From Clostridia bacterium (GTDB lineage Bacteria; Bacillota; Clostridia; Oscillospirales; CAG-272): a stretch of DNA of 54,427 nt. Below are positions 27,905 to 37,189 of the stretch, in pieces. Under the pieces are notes generated by a model. That model was given only the letters and a program-made list of their open reading frames with translations, had not been told where the DNA came from and ran no database searches. Position 1 is the first letter of the stretch. Each line of letters opens with the position of its first letter. The stretch is taken from positions 1 through 54,427 of the forward strand of contig JAFUJB010000008.1 in NCBI GenBank assembly GCA_017473865.1. Reading direction: 5' to 3'. The position numbers and the translations under genes were made by a program.

Positions 27905-28230
27905 CAATCAAAAAATGCTTGCGTATCTCTCCTTCCGTCATTTTGCCAAGGCAAAATGCCACCTCCCTCGTCAGATGGAGGCAAGTGATTACACTCGCAA
28001 AAAAGGCTCTCCCTACGGGAGAGCTCCCGCGATAGCGGGTGAGAGAGCAAATGATTACAACTCGTTAGCCCCTCTCCGTCGCCTATCGGCGCCACCTCTC
28101 CCAAAGGGCGAGGCTACAATACTCCCTCGCCAACGTTTTGCTCCCCGTCAGGAGAGGGCAAGTGATTACAACTCGTCAGCCCCTCTCCGTCGCGCTTTGT
28201 GCGCCACCTCTCCCATAGGGCGAGGCTCAA
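27905..28230. repeat. Composite dispersed repeat block
   Basis: 27982-28050 matches 12081-12149. Two further related units, 28050-28112 and 28148-28230, share GATTACAACTCGT.AGCCCC, TCTCCGTCGC, GCGCCACCTCTCCCA and AGGGCGAGGCT. CCTCCCTCGTCAG- and CTCCCGTCAGGAGAGGG-type stretches recur between them. Frames that cross the block are not genes: they lack ribosome sites and protein similarity. Confidence 0.8.
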
Positions 28231-28270: not shown

Positions 28271-28299
28271 TTGACTTTACCAATGGAAAGTGCTAAAAT
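28271..28299 (+). promoter_or_regulatory. Sigma-A promoter of the T-box operon
   Basis: TTGACT (28271-28276), a 17-base spacer and TAAAAT (28294-28299) place the transcript start near 28306, at the 5' edge of the T-box leader. Confidence 0.78.
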
Positions 28300-28305
28300 A
28301 ATTGC

Positions 28306-28558
28306 ATATTTTATAACACTATGACGAAAACAAGTAAGCATATTATACGTTTTCCCAGAGAACTGTCGGTTGGTGCAAGACAGGTAAGACGGAATATGCC
28401 GAATACATTTCCGAGTGGACTGTCCGAAAGTGCAGTAGGGCAGTACGGGAAAGCGCCCGTTACAGCGTGAGGTCCTATTTGGGACTTACTGAGAACCAAC
28501 TGAGGTGGTACCACGGGAAAAACTCGTCCTCTGCAATATTTTGCAGAGGACTTTTTTG
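28306..28558 (+). promoter_or_regulatory. T-box leader, tyrosine specifier (UAC)
   Basis: The conserved T-box is at 28501-28517 (TGAGGTGGTACCACGGG, containing the UGGU that pairs with an uncharged ACCA end). Stem I is visible: AGTA (28333-28336), a 7-bp helix GCATATT (28338-28344)/AATATGC (28393-28399), then the specifier loop GAA-TAC-A, with the codon TAC at 28404-28406. AGAGA and GGTTGGTGCAAGAC give the distal Stem I features. The UGGU bulge calls for discriminator A, as tRNA-Tyr has. The terminator is at 28526-28558. Known mechanism: uncharged tRNA-Tyr stabilises the antiterminator, so downstream genes are expressed when tyrosine is short. Class and codon are read directly; the tRNA pairing is inferred from them. 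Confidence 0.93.
28526..28558 (+). terminator. Regulated terminator of the T-box leader
   Basis: GTCCTCTGCAA/TTGCAGAGGAC is an 11-bp perfect stem with a four-base loop followed by six T. Its 5' arm competes with the antiterminator that contains the T-box sequence. Confidence 0.93.
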
Positions 28559-28623
28559 TTTTAAATATATCCCCTCGGTCGTGATTACATAAATATTTAC
28601 CGTTTACATAAAAGGAGAATACA

Positions 28624-30261
28624 ATGGTAATATCTGATTTTTTGGAAAGAAATGCAAGACTTTACGGGGATGAGACGGCGTTGGTCGAAATTAATCCCTC
28701 TGAAGAAAGGGATAATGCTGTTACTTGGAGAGATTTTAGTCTTATTGAAAATACGCGCCCCGACCTGCCTTACAGACGCGAATTAACGTGGCAGAGATTT
28801 GATGAAAAGGCAAACAGATTTGCCAATCTGCTTCTGAGCAGAGGTATTAAAAAGGGTCAGAAGGTTGCTATTCTGCTTATGAACTGCCTTGAGTGGCTGC
28901 CAATATATTTCGGTATATTGAAATCGGGCGCGATTGCAGTGCCTATGAACTTCAGATATTCGGGTAATGAAATTGAGTATTGCCTTGACCTCGCAGACGT
29001 TGACGTGCTTGTGTTTGGTCCTGAATTTACTGAACGTCTTGAGTCGGTTCCCAATGCAATTGACAGACTGAAAATGAAATTCTTTGTTGGCAGAGACGTC
29101 CCTTGCTTTGCGGAAAGCTATCTTGAGCTTGTAACCTACTGTTCGACAAAAGCTCCCCCTGTATTACTTGACGAAGACGACCATGCTGCAATTTATTTTT
29201 CGTCGGGTACAACGGGCAGACCGAAGGCTATTTTGCATAACCACAGAGCTCTCGTTCATTCTTGTAAGACCGAGCAGAACCACCACAGTCAGACGAGAGA
29301 CGACGTGTTTCTCTGTATCCCCCCTCTTTACCATACGGGTGCGAAAATGCACTGGTTCGGCAGTCTGATGTCGGGAAGCAGAGCGGTACTTCTCAGAGGC
29401 GTAAAGCCCGAGTGGATCCTCAGAGCCGTAACGGAAGAAAAATGTACTATCGTATGGCTTCTTGTACCGTGGGCGCAGGACTTGCTTAACGCGATTGAAT
29501 CGGGTAAAATTAATATTGGTGACTATATGCTTGAACAGTGGCGTTTGATGCATATAGGTGCTCAGCCCGTCCCCCCGAGTCTTATAAACAGGTGGAAAAA
29601 AATATTCCCTGACCACGAATACGATACGAACTACGGTCTTTCCGAATCTATCGGTCCCGGATGCGTACACCTCGGCGTTGAAAATATACATAAGGTGGGA
29701 GCAATCGGCAAGCCCGGTTACAACTGGCAGACGAAAATTGTTGACGAAAACGGCAACGAGCTTGCGCAGGGATGCGTAGGAGAACTTGCGGTCAAGGGCG
29801 ACGGCGTTATGCTTTGTTACTACAAAAACGAAGAGGCGACAAAGGAAGTTCTCAAAGACGGCTGGCTGTTTACGGGCGACGTTGCAAGAATGGACGAAGA
29901 CGGATTTATCTATCTTGTAGACCGTAAGAAAGACGTTATTATTTCGGGCGGAGAAAACCTCTATCCCGTTGAAATTGAAGATTTCCTTAATACAAATACA
30001 AAGATCAAGGACGTTGCGGTAATCGGTCTTCCCGATGAACGACTTGGAGAAATAGCTGCCGCTGTTATTGAACTTAAAGAGGGAAAAGAATGTACGGAAG
30101 AAGAAATCAACGAATTCTGTATGGCACTCCCCAGATACAAGCGTCCGAGAAAGATCATTTTTGCAGACGTACCCCGCAATCCTACGGGCAAGATCGAAAA
30201 GCCCGTATTGCGTGAAAAATATTGTGGCGGACGACTGGTTGAAGCTCAGACAACAAAGTGA
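28624..30261 (+). CDS. AMP-forming acyl-CoA ligase (first gene of the Tyr T-box operon)
   Basis: AAAAGGAG precedes ATG 28624. The 545-residue protein has the adenylate-forming motifs in order: A3 YFSSGTTGRPKA (about 192-203), A5 TNYGLSES, A7 FTGDVARMDEDGF, A8 DRKKDVIISGGENLYP and A10 PTGKIEKP with the catalytic Lys. Members activate a carboxylic acid to the acyl-AMP and then the CoA thioester, in the cytoplasm. It looks like medium/long-chain or aryl-CoA ligases; the exact acid cannot be read. In this operon, with paaK and iorAB, an arylacetate such as 4-hydroxyphenylacetate is the most likely substrate (inference). It starts 66 bases after the T-box terminator, so it is directly under Tyr control. 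Confidence 0.9.
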   Translation: MVISDFLERNARLYGDETALVEINPSEERDNAVTWRDFSLIENTRPDLPYRRELTWQRFDEKANRFANLLLSRGIKKGQKVAILLMNCLEWLPIYFGILKSGAIAVPMNFRYSGNEIEYCLDLADVDVLVFGPEFTERLESVPNAIDRLKMKFFVGRDVPCFAESYLELVTYCSTKAPPVLLDEDDHAAIYFSSGTTGRPKAILHNHRALVHSCKTEQNHHSQTRDDVFLCIPPLYHTGAKMHWFGSLMSGSRAVLLRGVKPEWILRAVTEEKCTIVWLLVPWAQDLLNAIESGKINIGDYMLEQWRLMHIGAQPVPPSLINRWKKIFPDHEYDTNYGLSESIGPGCVHLGVENIHKVGAIGKPGYNWQTKIVDENGNELAQGCVGELAVKGDGVMLCYYKNEEATKEVLKDGWLFTGDVARMDEDGFIYLVDRKKDVIISGGENLYPVEIEDFLNTNTKIKDVAVIGLPDERLGEIAAAVIELKEGKECTEEEINEFCMALPRYKRPRKIIFADVPRNPTGKIEKPVLREKYCGGRLVEAQTTK

Positions 30262-30286
30262 TATAATACTTAGGAAGGTGTAAAAA

Positions 30287-31825
30287 TTGGTTATCCAGAT
30301 AATAATGCTCGTCGCGTTTTTTGGAACGATGATCGGCATTGGCATATACTGCAGAAAAAATTCTACGGATGTAAACGGATTTGTCCTCGGCGGCAGAAAC
30401 GTAGGTCCTTGGCTTACTGCATTTGCCTACGGTACGTCGTATTTCTCGGCGGTAGTTTTTGTAGGGTATGCCGGTCAGTTTGGTTGGAAATACGGCATTG
30501 CGGCAACGTGGGCAGGTATCGGCAACGCATTTCTCGGCTCACTGCTCGCGTGGATGGTTCTCGGCAGACGAACGAGAATTATGACGCAGCATCTTAACAG
30601 CGCGACAATGCCCCAGTTTTTCGGCAGCAGATATAAGTCAGAGGGACTGAAGCTTCTGTCCTCGGCTGTAATATTTATATTTTTGATTCCATATACGGCA
30701 TCACTCTATAACGGACTCAGCCGACTTTTCGGTATGGCTTTCAAGATTGATTATGCTTATTGCGTGCTGGCTATGGCGGCACTTACGGCAGTTTACGTTA
30801 TTGCGGGCGGCTATATGGCGACGGCTATAAACGACTTTATTCAAGGTATTATTATGATTGTCGGTATCATTGCCGTAATCATCGCTGTGCTTAATACAAA
30901 AGGCGGTTTTGAAAACGCCATGACAATGCTTTCGGGTATAGGTTCTGAAATCGAAGGCATAAGAATAGGTGAATTTACCTCTTTCCTCGGTCCTGATCCG
31001 ATAGGTCTTCTCGGCGTTGTACTTCTTACCTCGCTCGGTACTTGGGGACTTCCTCAGATGGTGCAGAAATTCTATGCTATTAAGAGCGAAAAGGCAATTA
31101 CAAAGGGTACAGTAATTTCTACGGTATTTGCCCTTATCGTTGCGGGCGGATGCTATTTCCTCGGCGGATTCGGCAGACTTTTCACTCCCGAAACGGCGGC
31201 AGACGGAAGTATAATCTACGATTCAATCATACCGAATATGCTGTCGGGGCTTTCTCCTGTACTGATAGGAGTAGTAATAATACTTGTTCTCTCGGCATCA
31301 ATGTCGACTCTGTCGTCTCTCGTGCTTGCATCAAGCTCGACGCTGACTCTTGATTTTATTAAAGAAAAAATTGTCAAGAATATGCCCGAGAAAAAACAAG
31401 TGTTTACAATGCGCTTACTTATCGTAGTATTTATTGCCGTTTCTGCAATAATTGCTATCGTACAGCACAACAGCAAGATAACGTTTATCGCTCAGCTGAT
31501 GGGCATATCGTGGGGAGCTTTGGCGGGTGCATTCCTTGCCCCCTTCCTCTACGGATTGTACTCAAAGAGCGTAACAAAAGCGGCGGTCTGGGTTAATATA
31601 ATCTTTTCAACCGTTGTAATGATTGCAAATATACTTTTCGGACAGTATTTCCCGACAATACTCAGGTCCCCAATTAACGCAGGCGCATTTTGTATGCTTG
31701 CAGGACTTATCATCGTTCCTGTGGTAAGCTCATTCACAAAAAAACTTGAAAAGGAACATATTGACGACATATTTTCTTGTTACAATAAAAAAGTAATTGT
31801 TGACATAAAAGAGCATATGGGTTGA
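30287..31825 (+). CDS. Sodium:solute symporter (SSS family)
   Basis: The start is TTG 30287 behind GGAAGGTG; the first ATG is six codons later and lacks a site. The 512-residue protein has about 13 membrane helices and SSS signatures near the start (YCRKNSTDVNGFVLGGRNVG, then FAYGTSYFSAVVFVGYAGQ) and in the middle (GTWGLPQMVQKFYAIKSEK). The family imports sugars, amino acids, short carboxylates and aromatic acids with sodium. It lies 25 bases after the acyl-CoA ligase and 26 before iorA, inside the Tyr T-box operon, so uptake of an arylacetate or related acid is the natural guess. Panthothenate- and acetate-type members look similar, so the substrate needs testing. Confidence 0.88.
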   Translation: MVIQIIMLVAFFGTMIGIGIYCRKNSTDVNGFVLGGRNVGPWLTAFAYGTSYFSAVVFVGYAGQFGWKYGIAATWAGIGNAFLGSLLAWMVLGRRTRIMTQHLNSATMPQFFGSRYKSEGLKLLSSAVIFIFLIPYTASLYNGLSRLFGMAFKIDYAYCVLAMAALTAVYVIAGGYMATAINDFIQGIIMIVGIIAVIIAVLNTKGGFENAMTMLSGIGSEIEGIRIGEFTSFLGPDPIGLLGVVLLTSLGTWGLPQMVQKFYAIKSEKAITKGTVISTVFALIVAGGCYFLGGFGRLFTPETAADGSIIYDSIIPNMLSGLSPVLIGVVIILVLSASMSTLSSLVLASSSTLTLDFIKEKIVKNMPEKKQVFTMRLLIVVFIAVSAIIAIVQHNSKITFIAQLMGISWGALAGAFLAPFLYGLYSKSVTKAAVWVNIIFSTVVMIANILFGQYFPTILRSPINAGAFCMLAGLIIVPVVSSFTKKLEKEHIDDIFSCYNKKVIVDIKEHMG

Positions 31826-31851
31826 TAAAACGAAAGTGAGGAAACAGAACG

Positions 31852-33588
31852 ATGAAACAACTTATGTTAGGTAACGAAGCGGCGGCGAGAGGTCTTTATG
31901 AAGCCGGTTGTTCTTTCGTATCAAGCTATCCCGGCACACCCAGCACGGAAATTACCGAGGCTGTTGCAAAATATTCTGAAATATATGCTGAATGGGCTCC
32001 CAATGAAAAAGTAGCGATGGAGTCGGCGTTCGGTGCATCCTTGGCAGGAAAGAGAAGCTTCTGCGGTATGAAGCACGTTGGTCTCAACGTTGCTGCAGAC
32101 CCGTTATTTACAATAGCGTATACGGGAGTTAACGCAGGTATGGTAATAGGCGTTGCGGACGACCCCGGTATGCACAGCTCACAGAACGAGCAGGATTCAA
32201 GACACTATGCAAAAGCGGCAAAACTGCCTATGCTTGAACCCTCGGATTCGAAAGATTCGCTTGAGTTTGCAAAGGCAGCTTATGAATTGTCCGAAGCATT
32301 TGATACACCCGTACTTCTCAAAATGTGTACGCGCGTTGCTCATTCGCAAAGCATTGTTGAAACCTCGGACAGAGCCGAAACAGCACAGAAAGAATACGTA
32401 AAAAATCCCCAGAAATACATAATGATGCCCGGTTTTGCAAAGAAAAGACACCCAATTGTTGAAGAGCGTCTTTTGAAGATTGCTGAATTTTCAGCCAACT
32501 CCGATCTTAACAGGGTTGAAGAGGGAACCGATAAGTCGGTCGGTATTATTACCGCAGGCACTTGCTATCAGTACGTAAAAGAAGTTGCAAAAGACAAGTA
32601 CAGCGTTCTTAAGCTTGGTATCGTTTGGCCCTTGTCCGAAAAACTTATTAAGGATTTTGCTTCTACCGTTGATAAGGTTATTGTAATTGAAGAGCTTGAC
32701 GGCTTTATCGAAGAATTCTGCAAGAACATCGGTGTTGAATGTGAAGGTAAAAACATCTTTTCAAACATCGACGAGCTTTCACAGAACAAGGTTGCAAAGG
32801 GACTTGGTATTGAATACGAAGCGGGCAACGAGGTTGACGCCGTTATCCCTAACCGTCCTCCCGTTATGTGCGCGGGCTGTCCCCACCGAGGTCTTTACTA
32901 CGTTCTCTCAAAACTTAAACTTAACGTAATCGGCGACATCGGTTGTTATACCTTAGGTGCTGTTGCTCCTTTGAATGCCGTTGACAGCGTTATCTGTATG
33001 GGCGCATCTGTTTCGGGCGTTCACGGATTTAATAAAGCAAATGACGGTAAGAGCGAGGGCAAGACTGTTGCCGTAATCGGCGACTCTACGTTTATGCACT
33101 CGGGATTAACCGGACTTGTAAATATTTCTTATAACAACTCAAACAGTACCGTTATTATTCTCGACAACTCAATTACGGGTATGACCGGACACCAGCATAA
33201 CCCCACGACAGGCTTTAACCTTAAGGGCGATCCCGCTTCTAAGGTTGATTTAGAGGGCGTTTGCAGAGCGATAGGCATTAATTCTGTACGAGTTGTTGAT
33301 CCTTACAACATTGCAGAGTGCGAACAGGTAATTAAAGAGGAGCTTGAAAGAAACGAACCTTCGGTTATAATTTCAAGACGTCCCTGCGCACTTTTGAAAT
33401 ACGTAAAATATAAGACTCCCGTAGTCGTTTCGTCTGATAAGTGCAAGAGCTGTAAAATGTGTATGAAGATAGGCTGTCCGGCGATCAGTATGGTCGACGG
33501 TAAAGCGGTCATCGATTCGACACTTTGTACGGGCTGTAACGTATGTACGCAGCTTTGCAAATTCGGTGCAATGCAGGAGGGTAAATAA
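31852..33588 (+). CDS. iorA: Indolepyruvate:ferredoxin oxidoreductase, alpha subunit
   Basis: The 578-residue protein has the IOR alpha order: pyrimidine-type domain (GNEAAARGLYEAGCSFVSSY), SSYPGTPSTE, a TPP-binding domain (CPHRGLYYVL, then GDIGCYTLG and NSITGMTGHQHNP), and a C-terminal two-cluster ferredoxin domain with C531/C534/C537/C542 and C559/C562/C565/C569. With IorB it interconverts aryl-pyruvates (indole-, phenyl-, hydroxyphenylpyruvate) and aryl-acetyl-CoA plus CO2 using ferredoxin. The reaction is reversible. The Tyr T-box upstream argues for the carboxylating, biosynthetic direction here. iorB begins two bases after its stop, and its ribosome site lies inside the end of iorA. Confidence 0.96.
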   Translation: MKQLMLGNEAAARGLYEAGCSFVSSYPGTPSTEITEAVAKYSEIYAEWAPNEKVAMESAFGASLAGKRSFCGMKHVGLNVAADPLFTIAYTGVNAGMVIGVADDPGMHSSQNEQDSRHYAKAAKLPMLEPSDSKDSLEFAKAAYELSEAFDTPVLLKMCTRVAHSQSIVETSDRAETAQKEYVKNPQKYIMMPGFAKKRHPIVEERLLKIAEFSANSDLNRVEEGTDKSVGIITAGTCYQYVKEVAKDKYSVLKLGIVWPLSEKLIKDFASTVDKVIVIEELDGFIEEFCKNIGVECEGKNIFSNIDELSQNKVAKGLGIEYEAGNEVDAVIPNRPPVMCAGCPHRGLYYVLSKLKLNVIGDIGCYTLGAVAPLNAVDSVICMGASVSGVHGFNKANDGKSEGKTVAVIGDSTFMHSGLTGLVNISYNNSNSTVIILDNSITGMTGHQHNPTTGFNLKGDPASKVDLEGVCRAIGINSVRVVDPYNIAECEQVIKEELERNEPSVIISRRPCALLKYVKYKTPVVVSSDKCKSCKMCMKIGCPAISMVDGKAVIDSTLCTGCNVCTQLCKFGAMQEGK

Positions 33589-33589
33589 T

Positions 33590-34171
33590 ATGAAAACGAA
33601 TGACACGAAAAATATAATGATCGTCGGCGTCGGCGGTCAGGGCTCTCTACTTGCAAGTAAGCTGCTTGGCAGACTGCTTCTCACGAAGGGATATGACGTA
33701 AAGGTATCCGAAGTACACGGTATGAGCCAGAGAGGCGGTTCGGTCGTTACATACGTAAGATTCGGAAACAAAGTATATTCACCCGTTATAGACGAGGGAG
33801 AGGCAGATTTCATAGTATCTTTTGAGCTTCTTGAAGCGGCAAGATGGACGAAATTCCTGAAAAACGGCGGCAAGATAATTACTAACACACAGCAAGTAAA
33901 TCCTATGCCCGTTGTAACCGGGGCGGCTGAATATCCCAAAGAACTTGTAAGCAAGATGGAAGAAAAGGGCTTCAGCGTAGACGCTATTGACGCATTGGAT
34001 CTTGCTGAAAGCGCGGGTTCGTCGAAGGCGGTTAACCTTGTTCTTATGGGCAGACTTTCAAAATATTTTGATTTTACCGAAGACGAGTGGATGACTGCAA
34101 TCGAAAACAGTGTTCCTCCCAAATTTCTTGAAATGAATAAAAAAGCATTCTCGCTTGGATTGAATGCATAA
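33590..34171 (+). CDS. iorB: Indolepyruvate:ferredoxin oxidoreductase, beta subunit
   Basis: ATG 33590 is served by GCAGGAGG at the end of iorA; the frame is open further upstream but only into iorA. The 193-residue protein is the gamma-type domain of 2-oxoacid oxidoreductases: IMIVGVGGQGSLLASKLL, then EVHGMSQRGGSVVTYVRFG. It forms the complex with IorA and contributes to CoA binding. The tight spacing on both sides (2 bases from iorA, 15 to paaK) shows coupled expression. Nothing in it looks degenerate. Confidence 0.95.
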   Translation: MKTNDTKNIMIVGVGGQGSLLASKLLGRLLLTKGYDVKVSEVHGMSQRGGSVVTYVRFGNKVYSPVIDEGEADFIVSFELLEAARWTKFLKNGGKIITNTQQVNPMPVVTGAAEYPKELVSKMEEKGFSVDAIDALDLAESAGSSKAVNLVLMGRLSKYFDFTEDEWMTAIENSVPPKFLEMNKKAFSLGLNA

Positions 34172-34186
34172 AAGGTGGTTAAATAT

Positions 34187-35494
34187 ATGGAAAAATATTA
34201 TCAACCGGAGATTGAAACAGCCGATCGCGAAACGATGAAGGCGCTTCAGAGCGAAAGACTGATCGAAACAGTAAAAAGAGTATACGAAAACGTTGAACAC
34301 TACCGCAAAAAGATGGACGAGATGGGGGTTACTCCCGATGACATAAAGAGTGTAGACGACCTCTATAAACTTCCTTTCAACTATAAGCAGGACCTTCGCG
34401 ACACATATCCCTACGGTATGTTTGCAGTACCTATGAAAGACGTTGTAAGACTTCATGCATCGAGTGGTACGACAGGTAAACAGATCGTTGTCGGATATAC
34501 CGAAAAAGATATGGATCTGTGGGCAGATTGCGTTGCAAGAGCATTAACGGCGGCAGGCTGTACAGATGAAGATATGGTACACGTTTCATACGGCTACGGC
34601 TTGTTTACCGGCGGACTTGGTGCAGACGGCGGAGCATTAAAACTGGGAGCGACAGCAATCCCCGTATCAAGCGGCAACACGCAGAGACAGGTTACAATAC
34701 TTAAAGATTTTGGTTCTACCATTCTTTGCTGCACCCCTTCCTATGCTTTACATATCGCTGAAACAATGCAGTCGCTCGGCGTAACAAAAGACGATATAAA
34801 GCTTAAGGCGGGTGTGTTTGGCGCTGAACCTTGGACAAATGAAATGCGTCAGCAGATCGAAGATATGCTCGGCATAAAAGCCTTTGATATTTACGGCTTA
34901 ACAGAGATTATCGGTCCCGGTGTTGGTTTTGAATGTTTTGAGCAGACGGGTATGCACATAAACGAAGACCACTTTGTTGTTGAAGTTATAGATCCCGATA
35001 CGGGTGAAGTGTTACCCGAGGGAACTCAGGGTGAGCTCGTTTTCTCTTGCATTACAAAAGAAGCATTCCCCATACTCCGTTACCGCACGAGAGATATCGG
35101 TGTTATTACAAGAGAAAAATGCTCATGCGGCAGAACGCTTGTAAAAATGACAAAACCCCGCGGAAGAACCGACGATATGCTTATTATCAGGGGCGTTAAC
35201 GTATTCCCCTCGCAGATTGAAACGGTACTTATCGAAAAGGGATATACAGCAAACTATCAGATCGTTGTCGACAGAGAACATAACTTTGACAGCATAGAAG
35301 TCAGGGTCGAATTGAGCAACGAAACCTTCCACGATACCATCAAGGGACTTGACAAAAAGGCTAAGGAACTGTCCGAAGCTCTGAAGGTCATTCTCGGCAT
35401 TAACGCAAAGGTTATCCTTATGGAACCAAACTCCTTGCCGCGTTCGGAAGGTAAGGCAGTACGCGTTATTGACAAACGTAAGCTTTTGGATTAA
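34187..35494 (+). CDS. paaK: Phenylacetate-CoA ligase
   Basis: ATG 34187 is served by AAAGGTGG; the in-frame GTG at 34175 overlaps that site. The 435-residue protein has the PaaK layout: N-terminal ETADRETMKALQSERL, P-loop LHASSGTTGKQIVVGYT, YGYGLFTGGLG, DIYGLTEIIGPGVGFEC and C-terminal RTDDMLIIRGVNVFPSQIE. It makes aryl-acetyl-CoA from an arylacetate with ATP and CoA. Next to iorAB it supplies, or uses, the CoA ester that IOR interconverts with the arylpyruvate. In archaea and rumen bacteria this pairing allows aromatic amino acids to be built from arylacetates; in degraders the pair runs the other way and yields ATP. Confidence 0.95.
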   Translation: MEKYYQPEIETADRETMKALQSERLIETVKRVYENVEHYRKKMDEMGVTPDDIKSVDDLYKLPFNYKQDLRDTYPYGMFAVPMKDVVRLHASSGTTGKQIVVGYTEKDMDLWADCVARALTAAGCTDEDMVHVSYGYGLFTGGLGADGGALKLGATAIPVSSGNTQRQVTILKDFGSTILCCTPSYALHIAETMQSLGVTKDDIKLKAGVFGAEPWTNEMRQQIEDMLGIKAFDIYGLTEIIGPGVGFECFEQTGMHINEDHFVVEVIDPDTGEVLPEGTQGELVFSCITKEAFPILRYRTRDIGVITREKCSCGRTLVKMTKPRGRTDDMLIIRGVNVFPSQIETVLIEKGYTANYQIVVDREHNFDSIEVRVELSNETFHDTIKGLDKKAKELSEALKVILGINAKVILMEPNSLPRSEGKAVRVIDKRKLLD

Positions 35495-35520
35495 AATAAT
35501 CAGAAGGAGTAGGTAATATT

Positions 35521-35949
35521 ATGGTAAAACAGTTATCGGTTTTTATTCAGAATAAATCGGGCAAGATTGCGTCCGTTACACGCACACTCTATGAAAACGG
35601 AATTGATATCCGCGCGCTCTCGGTTGCAGATACGACCGATTTCGGTATTTTGCGTATGCTGGTCAGCGACGTAAATAAGGCAAAAGAGGCGTTGGCAAAA
35701 GAAAACTGTATTGTCAGCATAAACGACGTTGACGTCGTTGCCGTTCCCGACAAGCCGGGCGGTCTTGCGCAGGTTTTGCAGGCACTTTCGGATGCAAATA
35801 TCGATATTGAATATATGTACTCCCTTATAGACAGAGGAACAGATGATGCTTATATGGTGTTCCGTCTGGCTGATGGAGCCGAATTGCTTGACGTACTTGA
35901 AGCAAATGGCTTGAAGACAGTACCCGCACAAAAGCTGGGACTCAACTGA
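35521..35949 (+). CDS. Tandem ACT-domain protein
   Basis: GAAGGAG precedes ATG 35521. The 142-residue protein is two ACT domains (about 1-68 and 69-142), with PGGLAQVLQAL in the second and KSGKIASVTRTLYENGIDIR in the first. There is no catalytic domain. ACT pairs bind amino acids and control enzymes of their metabolism. Such short double-ACT proteins often sit beside paaK and iorAB genes in anaerobes. A plausible role is sensing an aromatic amino acid and adjusting the ligase or IOR; no ligand can be read from the sequence. It lies 26 bases after paaK and 22 before the aminotransferase. Confidence 0.9.
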   Translation: MVKQLSVFIQNKSGKIASVTRTLYENGIDIRALSVADTTDFGILRMLVSDVNKAKEALAKENCIVSINDVDVVAVPDKPGGLAQVLQALSDANIDIEYMYSLIDRGTDDAYMVFRLADGAELLDVLEANGLKTVPAQKLGLN

Positions 35950-35971
35950 AATTGAATCGAGGTAATTACAA

Positions 35972-37138
35972 ATGCAGGAAATGAGCAGAAAAACAAAGCA
36001 TTTCACTGATTCGGTCATACGCCGTATGACGAGAATCGCGATTGCGAATAATGCAATAAACTTGGCTCAGGGCTTTCCGGATTTCGATCCCCCGAAGGCT
36101 TTGACAGACAGACTTGAAGAGATCAGCCAACTCGGCCCTCATCAGTATCCCATAACAATGGGTGCGCCCAATTTCAGACGCGCATTGGCTGAAAAGTGCG
36201 GACGTTTTATGGGCAGAAAGATCGACCCCGAAACAGAGGTAGTTGTAACCATTGGCTCGACTGAAGCTATGGTAGATACACTTTTTGCAATTACAAATCC
36301 CGGCGACAAGATTATTATGTTCTCGCCCTATTTTGAAAACTATCGCGCACAGACTTTGCTTGTTGACTGCGAGCCTGTATTCGTTCCCCTTATTCCCCCT
36401 GCCTTCAATTACGATGCAAACGTACTTGAAGATGCGTTTAAGCAGGGCGCAAAGGCTATTCTTATCTGTAATCCCTCCAACCCCAGCGGTAAGGTGTTTA
36501 CGGAAGCTGAACTCAAGCAGATAGCAGACCTTGCAATTAAATACGATACGTACGTTATTATGGACGAGGTTTACGAGCACATTATTTATGAACCTCACAA
36601 GCACGTATATATGAACAGCCTTCCGGGGATGTGGGAGAGAACAATTTCTTGCAGCAGCTTGTCAAAGACCTATTCTATTACAGGTTGGAGACTCGGTTAT
36701 GCAATCGCTCCTCAGCATATTATGGACAAGATCAAGCAGTATCACGACTTTAATACAGTCGGAGCGCCTTCTCCCCTTATGGAAGCGGCTGTTGTGGGGC
36801 TTGAAATGCCCGACAGCTACTACGAAGAATTCGGTCAGCATTATGCCCATATGAAAAAGATATTCACCGAAGGTCTTGACAGGCTGGGAATCGAATATTC
36901 CGATCCGCAGGGTACTTATTTCGTACTTGCAAATATCGGTCAGTTTATGAAAAAGGGTCAGACAGACGTTGAGTTCTGCGAACAGATGGCAGCGAAAGTA
37001 GGCGTTGCGGCTGTACCAGGTACGTCGTTCTTTATGGAAGACGTTAGAGACATCGTAAGACTTCACTATGCAAAGAAGGACGAAACTCTCTACGAAGCAC
37101 TCGAAAGACTGGCGACGATTAAACAGAAACTTGGTTGA
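35972..37138 (+). CDS. Class I/II aminotransferase, aromatic or aspartate type
   Basis: GAGGTAATTAC precedes ATG 35972. The 388-residue protein has fold-type I PLP motifs: NPSNPSG (167-173), the D198 pair DEVYE, SSLSKTYSITGWRLGY with PLP-Lys K232 and R240, and the C-terminal VRLHYAK substrate Arg. It is the last gene of the T-box operon. It would convert arylpyruvate to the aromatic amino acid with glutamate or another donor, the final step of the salvage route. Members of this branch often accept several amino acids, so aspartate or kynurenine activity cannot be excluded. A terminator hairpin follows seven bases after the stop. Confidence 0.92.
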   Translation: MQEMSRKTKHFTDSVIRRMTRIAIANNAINLAQGFPDFDPPKALTDRLEEISQLGPHQYPITMGAPNFRRALAEKCGRFMGRKIDPETEVVVTIGSTEAMVDTLFAITNPGDKIIMFSPYFENYRAQTLLVDCEPVFVPLIPPAFNYDANVLEDAFKQGAKAILICNPSNPSGKVFTEAELKQIADLAIKYDTYVIMDEVYEHIIYEPHKHVYMNSLPGMWERTISCSSLSKTYSITGWRLGYAIAPQHIMDKIKQYHDFNTVGAPSPLMEAAVVGLEMPDSYYEEFGQHYAHMKKIFTEGLDRLGIEYSDPQGTYFVLANIGQFMKKGQTDVEFCEQMAAKVGVAAVPGTSFFMEDVRDIVRLHYAKKDETLYEALERLATIKQKLG

Positions 37139-37145
37139 AAACATT

Positions 37146-37189
37146 AAAGGCTATACACGGTTTTTTCCTGTGTATAGCCTTTATTTTAA
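37146..37189 (+). terminator. Terminator of the Tyr T-box operon
   Basis: AAAGGCTATACACGG/CCTGTGTATAGCCTTT arms around a T-rich loop, then ATTTTAAT. It has GGCTATACACGG arms like the hairpin at 23437-23471. Confidence 0.88.

Follow-up and report, generated by a model that had tools for sequence, protein, structure and literature searches.

A tyrosine-specified T-box operon with a probable role in the salvage of arylacetic acids into aromatic amino acids in an uncultured Clostridia bacterium

The DNA analysed here, referred to as the window, is a stretch of 54,427 nucleotides that makes up one entire contig (C2; JAFUJB010000008.1) of the Clostridia bacterium assembly GCA_017473865.1 (genome G000; 1.31 Mb, 70% complete). 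The subject of the analysis is an operon that is preceded by a T-box leader with a tyrosine specifier, and in which seven co-directional genes run from the leader to position 37138 (Table 1). These encode an AMP-forming acyl-coenzyme A (CoA) ligase designated LIG, a sodium:solute symporter (SSS), the two subunits of an indolepyruvate/arylpyruvate:ferredoxin oxidoreductase (IOR; iorA and iorB), a PaaK-like ligase, a double-ACT protein and an aminotransferase. This gene content had been put forward in a preliminary description of the sequence, and was borne out by Pfam and NCBIfam searches with the qualification that the PaaK-like protein scores below the PaaK cut-off. IorA scores above the equivalog cut-off of TIGR03336 and IorB above that of NF005325, the latter protein falling slightly below the cut-off of TIGR03334 (199 against 205.8 bits), while the aminotransferase has many solved relatives, among them 1dju (titled aromatic aminotransferase). 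The span originally given to the operon was correct as far as the seven genes are concerned, but the unit appears to be slightly larger; since the intergenic gaps are short and a strong intrinsic terminator comes straight after the aminotransferase gene, transcription is likely to extend from approximately 28271 to 37183. Genes for MFS and GH2 proteins beyond the terminator are most likely a separate unit, although an MFS gene also comes after the operon in G141, a genome of the same genus.

Table 1. Positions in the window of the leader, genes and associated signals of the operon
Feature	Position	Strand	Evidence
Sigma-70-like promoter, TTGACT-17-TAAAAT, TG before the -10	28271..28299	+	Consensus 10/12; just 5' of leader
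T-box leader, Tyr specifier	28312..28534	+	RF00230 120.4 bits, E 3.5e-26
Specifier triplet UAC (Tyr), loop CGAA-UAC-A closed by UUUC	28404..28406	+	Sequence, cmscan alignment
T-box core GGTGGTACCACGG; UGGU at 28506-28509 suits a tRNA with discriminator base A	28504..28516	+	Sequence
T-box terminator hairpin, then T6	28526..28551	+	Fold -20 kcal/mol, z -7.6; terminator scan
LIG, AMP-forming acyl-CoA ligase, candidate 4-hydroxyphenylacetate-CoA ligase	28624..30261	+	PF00501, PF13193
SSF/SSS sodium:solute symporter, candidate aryl-acid importer	30287..31825	+	PF00474 (scan from 30332)
iorA, indolepyruvate/arylpyruvate:ferredoxin oxidoreductase alpha	31852..33588	+	TIGR03336 717.3 bits, cut-off 650.9
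iorB, beta subunit; ATG at 33590 likely true start	33566..34171	+	NF005325 276 bits, cut-off 230
PaaK-like AMP-forming ligase, candidate phenylacetate-CoA ligase	34175..35494	+	TIGR02155 565.7 bits, cut-off 646.3
Double-ACT protein (ACT_8), candidate aromatic amino acid sensor	35521..35949	+	PF19571 85.7 bits
Class I/II aminotransferase, candidate arylpyruvate aminotransferase	35972..37138	+	PF00155 203.8 bits
Intrinsic terminator closing operon	37145..37183	+	16-pair stem, then T-rich tail

The leader is recognised by the Rfam T-box covariance model RF00230 with a score well above the gathering score of 93, and the alignment covers the whole model (1-219). The Stem I elements named in the preliminary description are all present in the sequence, namely AGTA (28333-28336), the helix formed by GCATATT (28338-28344) and AATATGC (28393-28399), and the GAA-TAC-A loop that carries the specifier; an AGAGA motif is located at 28357-28361. 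Downstream, a UGGN-bearing antiterminator competes with a terminator, the sequence GUCCUC being common to the 3' arm of the former and the 5' arm of the latter. Folding supported only part of this architecture, in that the terminator hairpin is far more stable than expected (Table 1), whereas Stem I folded alone was no better than shuffled sequences (z -0.92; 38 of 200 shuffles equally good), so that the evidence for Stem I comes from the conserved motifs and the covariance model match. Counterparts of the leader are present in the same genus, with 77% identity in G098 (query 17-259) and 76% identity in G141 (query 51-256). T-box control allows gene expression when the cognate tRNA is uncharged, i.e. 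when the amino acid is in short supply, and the leader at 28312-28534 is predicted from its sequence to sense tRNA-Tyr, with tRNA binding and readthrough as the predicted consequences. With its AGUA motif and GAA-UAC-A loop, the specifier codon would fit the pathway that is apparently under control.

To place the UAC specifier, the reading offset was calibrated with the remaining T-boxes of the same genome and the genes that they precede. The G000 assembly contains 11 T-box matches, two of which are one leader present on both C18 and C20. The specifier was taken to be the triplet that lies 5' of the closing helix and is separated from it by a single base. Read in this way, and listed with the genes that they precede, the specifiers are ACC (thrS-like), AAC (aspS- and gatB-like), CUC (LeuA-like), UUC (pheST-like), UGG (a lone trpB-like gene), UCC (serS), UGC (cysS), GUA and AUC (two ligase genes) and UAC (the window operon). 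Among these genes, Pfam confirmed the LeuA-like one and both ligases as well as the PALP fold of the trpB product, the other names being assigned by eye from protein starts. By the same rule, the window leader is read as tyrosine. The correspondence between the last base of UGGN and the tRNA discriminator base was checked on the G000 tRNAs for Trp (G), Phe (A), Cys and Thr (both U) and Ser (G). UGGC is present in the four Trp leaders that precede IorA genes and UGGU in the 34 Tyr and Phe leaders of the pooled set described below, a split that agrees with G73 of tRNA-Trp and A73 of tRNA-Phe in G000.

Two of these additional loci are described here in their own right. The trpB-like gene on C17 (L017, 1881-3104) stands alone under its Trp T-box, with a gene on the opposite strand adjoining, an arrangement that suggests formation of tryptophan from indole. 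The Leu T-box (L013, 1810-6543, on C20, and L014 on C18) precedes the LeuA-like gene and genes for an 832-aa protein, in which a sugar-isomerase-like barrel is fused to an AMP ligase, and for a protein of 271 aa; this stretch is present on two contigs.

The association between T-boxes and ior genes was examined across 146 genomes of the family, 94 of which have a TIGR03336 match above cut-off, giving at least 105 IorA loci, one of them (in G079) with an internal stop. Scoring was limited to 8 or 9 first-look candidates per genome, and 105 may therefore be a lower bound. The 104 loci outside the window were taken with up to 9 kb of upstream sequence, and T-boxes were sought by pattern and then with an nhmmer profile made from confirmed leaders, which recovered three leaders that the first pattern had overlooked. 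Pattern matches at L037, L047, L048, L081, L083 and L097, which have no evident T-box around them and were not reported by nhmmer, were discarded. A T-box lies upstream of the ior unit at 16 of the 105 loci, in 16 genomes with the window included, and every specifier is aromatic: nine are UAC (G000, G098, G141, G015, G010, G130, G005, G120 and G073), three UUC (G111, G059 and G002) and four UGG (G017, G080, G145 and G062, the closing helix of the G062 leader being unclear). The Rfam model also recovered the 15 T-boxes outside the window, ten of them above the gathering score and the others with E-values of 1.3e-14 or better.

LIG was surveyed in 80 named loci of public genomes, the best among 104 found; for 37 of the 80, the record title names a ruminant gut sample (goat, sheep, deer, cattle, yak or buffalo). 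A T-box precedes LIG in 20 of the 80 (16 UAC, 4 UUC) and PaaK in a further five, where the specifier is UUC in each case. At L217, L225 and L228, LIG, IorA and IorB come first and are followed by a separate Phe T-box before PaaK and ACT genes. No T-box was found before these genes in the remaining 55 loci, not all of which hold IorA and some of which are cut by contig ends. Ten genomes in which no T-box had been found at the LIG locus were scanned with the Rfam model, giving two matches at coordinates possibly fitting L172 and L175, where a coordinate check showed no T-box core. In one named locus, that of Eubacterium ruminantium ATCC 17233 (L203), IorAB adjoins LIG and no T-box was detected. 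The specifier of each leader was identified by eye, with the closing helix as the point from which to count back. GAAU-UAC-C (L161, where the contig end truncates the leader, L170 and L173) and GAAU-UUC-C (L165) were read in this manner, the former being otherwise mistakable for UUA.

Pooling of the family and named sets required the removal of duplicates, i.e. L150 and L151 (the same as G098 and G141) and L160 (IorA and leader identical to those of L159), and of T-boxes that do not precede the genes in question (L108, the second of L191, and L208). The resulting 38 T-boxes before LIG, SSS, PaaK or IorA comprise 22 Tyr, 12 Phe and 4 Trp leaders, so that all 38 specifiers are aromatic. Sorted by the first gene of the unit, LIG has 19 Tyr and 4 Phe leaders, SSS has 3 Tyr and PaaK has 7 Phe, while IorA has 1 Phe in its main clade and 4 Trp in a divergent clade. 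The difference between LIG-first and PaaK-first units gives a Fisher p of 1.6e-4, with kinship ignored. In a FastTree phylogeny of IorA (148 rows including a few duplicates, with PaaK-first leaders unlabelled), the four Trp-specified proteins fall in one 11-row clade with a support of 100. The specifier changes at least six times among the labelled rows of this tree, or 18 times if leaderless rows count as a state, and near relatives differ between UAC and UUC (L156 and L158 versus L157).

The operon is, with good probability, one that senses tRNA-Tyr and salvages arylacetic acids into aromatic amino acids, its direction, ligase substrates, symporter cargo and the role of the ACT protein being the deduced parts of this scheme. 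Uncharged tRNA-Tyr would cause the leader to form the antiterminator, such that the operon is read. The SSS symporter would then import an arylacetate, which LIG (acting on 4-hydroxyphenylacetate) and the PaaK-like ligase (acting on phenylacetate) would convert to CoA thioesters with cleavage of ATP to AMP. IorAB, using reduced ferredoxin and CO2, would carboxylate the thioesters to 4-hydroxyphenylpyruvate or phenylpyruvate, and the aminotransferase would convert these to tyrosine or phenylalanine; the ACT protein may give feedback, its designation as an aromatic amino acid sensor being a guess. On the simplest reading, LIG is for 4-hydroxyphenylacetate, PaaK for phenylacetate and the divergent-clade PaaK for indoleacetate, with the main-clade IorAB handling both phenyl compounds, and the first two of these assignments would explain the presence of two ligases in the window operon. 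Since control of PaaK-first units is by phenylalanine in all seven cases, PaaK together with the shared IorAB should also make phenylalanine, and the operon probably serves both amino acids as opposed to tyrosine alone.

A variant of this explanation, which is a shade of it and not its opposite, is that salvage is aromatic in general, mainly of phenylalanine and tyrosine together, with UAC as one of two interchangeable choices and not as the mark of a tyrosine pathway. This is a genuine, though not a favoured, possibility: the alternation of UAC and UUC among near relatives of the same gene order, which is what would be expected of an operon feeding both amino acids, the uniform phenylalanine control of PaaK-first units and the sharing of IorAB are all consistent with it, but leaders that stand before LIG or SSS are Tyr in 22 of 26 cases, and at L220 and L224 a Tyr T-box precedes LIG with no IorA behind it, such that LIG looks tyrosine-linked.

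The biosynthetic direction of the proposed salvage is favoured because of the logic of T-box control, the AMP-forming families to which the ligases belong, and the neighbouring genes of de novo aromatic synthesis in two genomes. In G002, a Phe T-box, iorA, iorB, paaK and an ACT gene are followed on one strand, 0.24 kb later, by a DAHP (3-deoxy-D-arabino-heptulosonate 7-phosphate) synthase gene, two other genes and a chorismate mutase/prephenate dehydratase gene. In G090, genes for an EPSP (5-enolpyruvylshikimate-3-phosphate) synthase-like protein (assigned by eye), prephenate dehydrogenase and DAHP synthase lie on the same strand 2.7-5.2 kb before LIG-iorAB, with two unrelated genes between. 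That IorAB would instead oxidise arylpyruvates derived from aromatic amino acids, with the T-box as a misleading or secondary control, is improbable, despite being the usual annotation of these genes and despite the involvement of IOR in amino acid fermentation in Pyrococcus and its reported role in conversion of phenylalanine to phenylacetate in Bacteroides thetaiotaomicron (both as cited in PMC13285125). The frequent absence of a T-box at IorA loci would sit well with catabolism; however, a leader that turns its operon on when the amino acid is short does the opposite of what catabolism needs, the specifiers are aromatic without exception, and two genomes tie the genes to de novo synthesis. 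Moreover, Pfam matches in the operon comprise two AMP-binding ligases and no ADP-forming ligase or phosphotransacylase/kinase, the latter enzymes being taken from PMC13285125 as the mark of a Stickland-type operon.

A different fate for the acyl-CoAs, in a lipid or secondary metabolite, with the symporter importing tyrosine itself, is very unlikely. LIG does group with the broad fatty-acyl/4-coumarate ligases, and the cargo of SSS proteins is not predictable, but iorAB, the aminotransferase and the ACT protein would have no evident role in the same unit, and, of the 20 named loci with a T-box before LIG, 10 have no SSS gene although IorA is present.

Several observations weigh against arylacetate salvage under tyrosine control as outlined above. 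The switching of specifiers among near relatives makes strict tyrosine specificity doubtful. The substrate proposed for LIG is read from the leader, a Tyr T-box being directly 5' of the gene here and in relatives; the family models cannot tell. LIG is under the cut-off of every NCBIfam model among the 25 listed of 108. The fifth protein of the operon fails the PaaK equivalog cut-off, yet its closest solved chains are phenylacetate-CoA ligases (2y27, 2y4o and 4r1l), hence the name PaaK-like. The discriminator rule is broken by the Trp leader of L108, which stands before a TrpB-like gene outside the pooled count and has UGGU, and no tRNA-Tyr was found in the 70% complete G000 assembly. The pattern and profile searches found no T-box at 89 of the 105 IorA loci; in just 24 of these does the contig extend for less than 4 kb upstream of iorA (for less than 1 kb in 8), so that most cannot be put down to contig ends and T-box control is not general. 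Same-strand linkage to de novo genes was found in just two of the family loci searched (101, made up of the window and the first 100 retrieved) and in 0 of the 80 named loci, with opposite-strand neighbours in G006 (DAHP synthase) and in L199 and L201 (weak prephenate dehydrogenase matches). Finally, prephenate dehydrogenase is matched in 14 of the 15 T-box relatives, and G098 and G141, of the same genus as G000, also have chorismate synthase and prephenate dehydratase.

The retention of prephenate dehydrogenase in these relatives, together with the many IorA loci that lack a T-box, indicates that salvage supplements de novo synthesis. In G000 itself, no match to chorismate synthase or prephenate dehydrogenase was found in the 70% of the genome that is assembled, and the match to prephenate dehydratase is marginal (E 5.6e-4). 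Obligate salvage was considered as a general claim and dropped, given this level of completeness and the presence of all three genes in G040, G098 and G141 of the same genus. G040, which is 97% complete, has as its best IorA match a weak one (5.9e-23, below cut-off) but has tyrA, pheA and aroC matches, and the salvage operon therefore seems not to be fixed in the genus. Among the matches listed for the 15 T-box relatives, with positions compared by eye, no T-box lies within approximately 10 kb upstream of prephenate dehydrogenase, chorismate synthase or prephenate dehydratase genes. The one exception is G002, in which prephenate dehydratase is encoded downstream of the ior genes controlled by the Phe T-box; in G098, a weak T-box match (38 bits) lies 11 kb before the de novo cluster. 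Four other genomes (G038, G064, G087 and G131) have IorA above cut-off, no match to prephenate dehydrogenase or, among the matches listed, to prephenate dehydratase, and no T-box before IorA, the contig of G038 starting merely 426 bases upstream of this gene. These are possible cases of a need for arylacetates.

The preliminary description had proposed that the operon supplies tyrosine from arylacetates, and that starvation control only makes sense on that basis. The direction of synthesis is supported by the specifiers, the ligase families, the de novo linkage in two genomes and the parallel Val/Ile system described below; the restriction to tyrosine is not, in view of the PaaK-first leaders. 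The second statement was too strong, given the number of IorA loci without a T-box and the prephenate dehydrogenase retained by T-box relatives.

A parallel system for Val and Ile is encoded on C10 of G000 at approximately 42-52 kb (L016, 1841-10874). Here, an Ile T-box (AUC) precedes a 755-aa protein composed of helix-turn-helix (HTH), cupin and AMP-ligase parts, and a Val T-box (GUA) precedes a second protein of this type (767 aa), after which come a gene of the nitrilase family, a small NTPase and a three-subunit, VOR-type 2-oxoacid oxidoreductase. HTH-cupin-AMP ligases are present in 100 of the 146 genomes at E 1e-100 or better, and 27 of the 30 loci nearest to the Val-type query, its own locus included, have a T-box (26 GUA and one CUG, at L146). 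Judged from its genes, the C10 locus looks like one for salvage of branched-chain acids, from which Val, Ile and Leu are known to be formed in the rumen (PMC7356843). It supports the biosynthetic reading of the tyrosine operon, which in the light of these loci looks like one member of a set. We lean, without great confidence, towards the wider proposal that skeleton salvage is wired per amino acid throughout the lineage, with Tyr, Phe, Trp, Val and Ile T-boxes each governing an acid-CoA ligase, a 2-oxoacid:ferredoxin oxidoreductase or both (or, for indole, a trpB gene on its own), such that tRNA charging would select which cross-fed acid is carboxylated. If so, the specifier would reveal the substrate of otherwise unassignable ligases and of IOR and VOR paralogues.

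Upstream of the leader, the promoter match is not in itself evidence of function, given that the region contains 24 comparable sites against 15.2 in shuffled sequences. The intergenic stretch just 5' of the promoter (27966-28227) contains pairs of repeats of 42 nt (93% identical) and 27 nt (96%), with copies approximately 111 bases apart.

Whether gut-bacterial IOR enzymes work in the breakdown or the synthesis of aromatic amino acids is an open question, and both views are given in PMC13285125. A T-box is an internal witness to what the cell lacks when it makes an enzyme, and here it points to synthesis. For this uncultured anaerobe, which has ruminant-gut relatives, that is a strong hint as to the running direction of enzymes usually annotated as breakdown. 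The specifiers also assign an amino acid to each of two ligases and two IOR clades, and thereby offer candidate substrates for named enzymes. The chemistry itself is known, since arylacetate use for aromatic amino acids has been described in methanogens and rumen bacteria (PMC4162585, PMC6737245, PMC7356843). In the open-access literature, to which the search was directed (subscription papers being outside its scope), no paper was found that pairs a T-box with IOR or with phenylacetate metabolism; the wiring is to that extent unreported, and no priority is claimed.

Four known systems invite comparison with the window operon. In Methanococcus maripaludis (Porat et al. 2004, as cited in PMC4162585), aryl acids likewise reach aromatic amino acid synthesis through IOR as a second pathway, but the route is archaeal and its IOR genes are MMP0713/0714, whereas the present one is in anaerobic bacteria and has tRNA-specific leaders, a symporter and two separate ligases. 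The formation of phenylalanine from phenylacetate by rumen bacteria (Allison 1965, as cited in PMC7356843) shares its chemistry with the proposed pathway and, judging by relatives, a similar habitat; to this old finding, as represented by that citation, the window would add candidate genes and a switch. T-boxes of aminoacyl-tRNA synthetase and biosynthesis genes (RF00230), such as those before the thrS-, serS-, cysS- and pheST-like genes of G000, have the same anatomy over the full model, but the target here is a likely salvage route from fermentation acids. The fourth is the Bacteroides IOR of PMC13285125, which also adjoins an AMP-forming arylacetate-CoA ligase, and for which the authors suggest biosynthesis while citing a report to the opposite effect. 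There, the direction was argued from the type of ligase, whereas in the window operon a regulatory RNA provides separate evidence.

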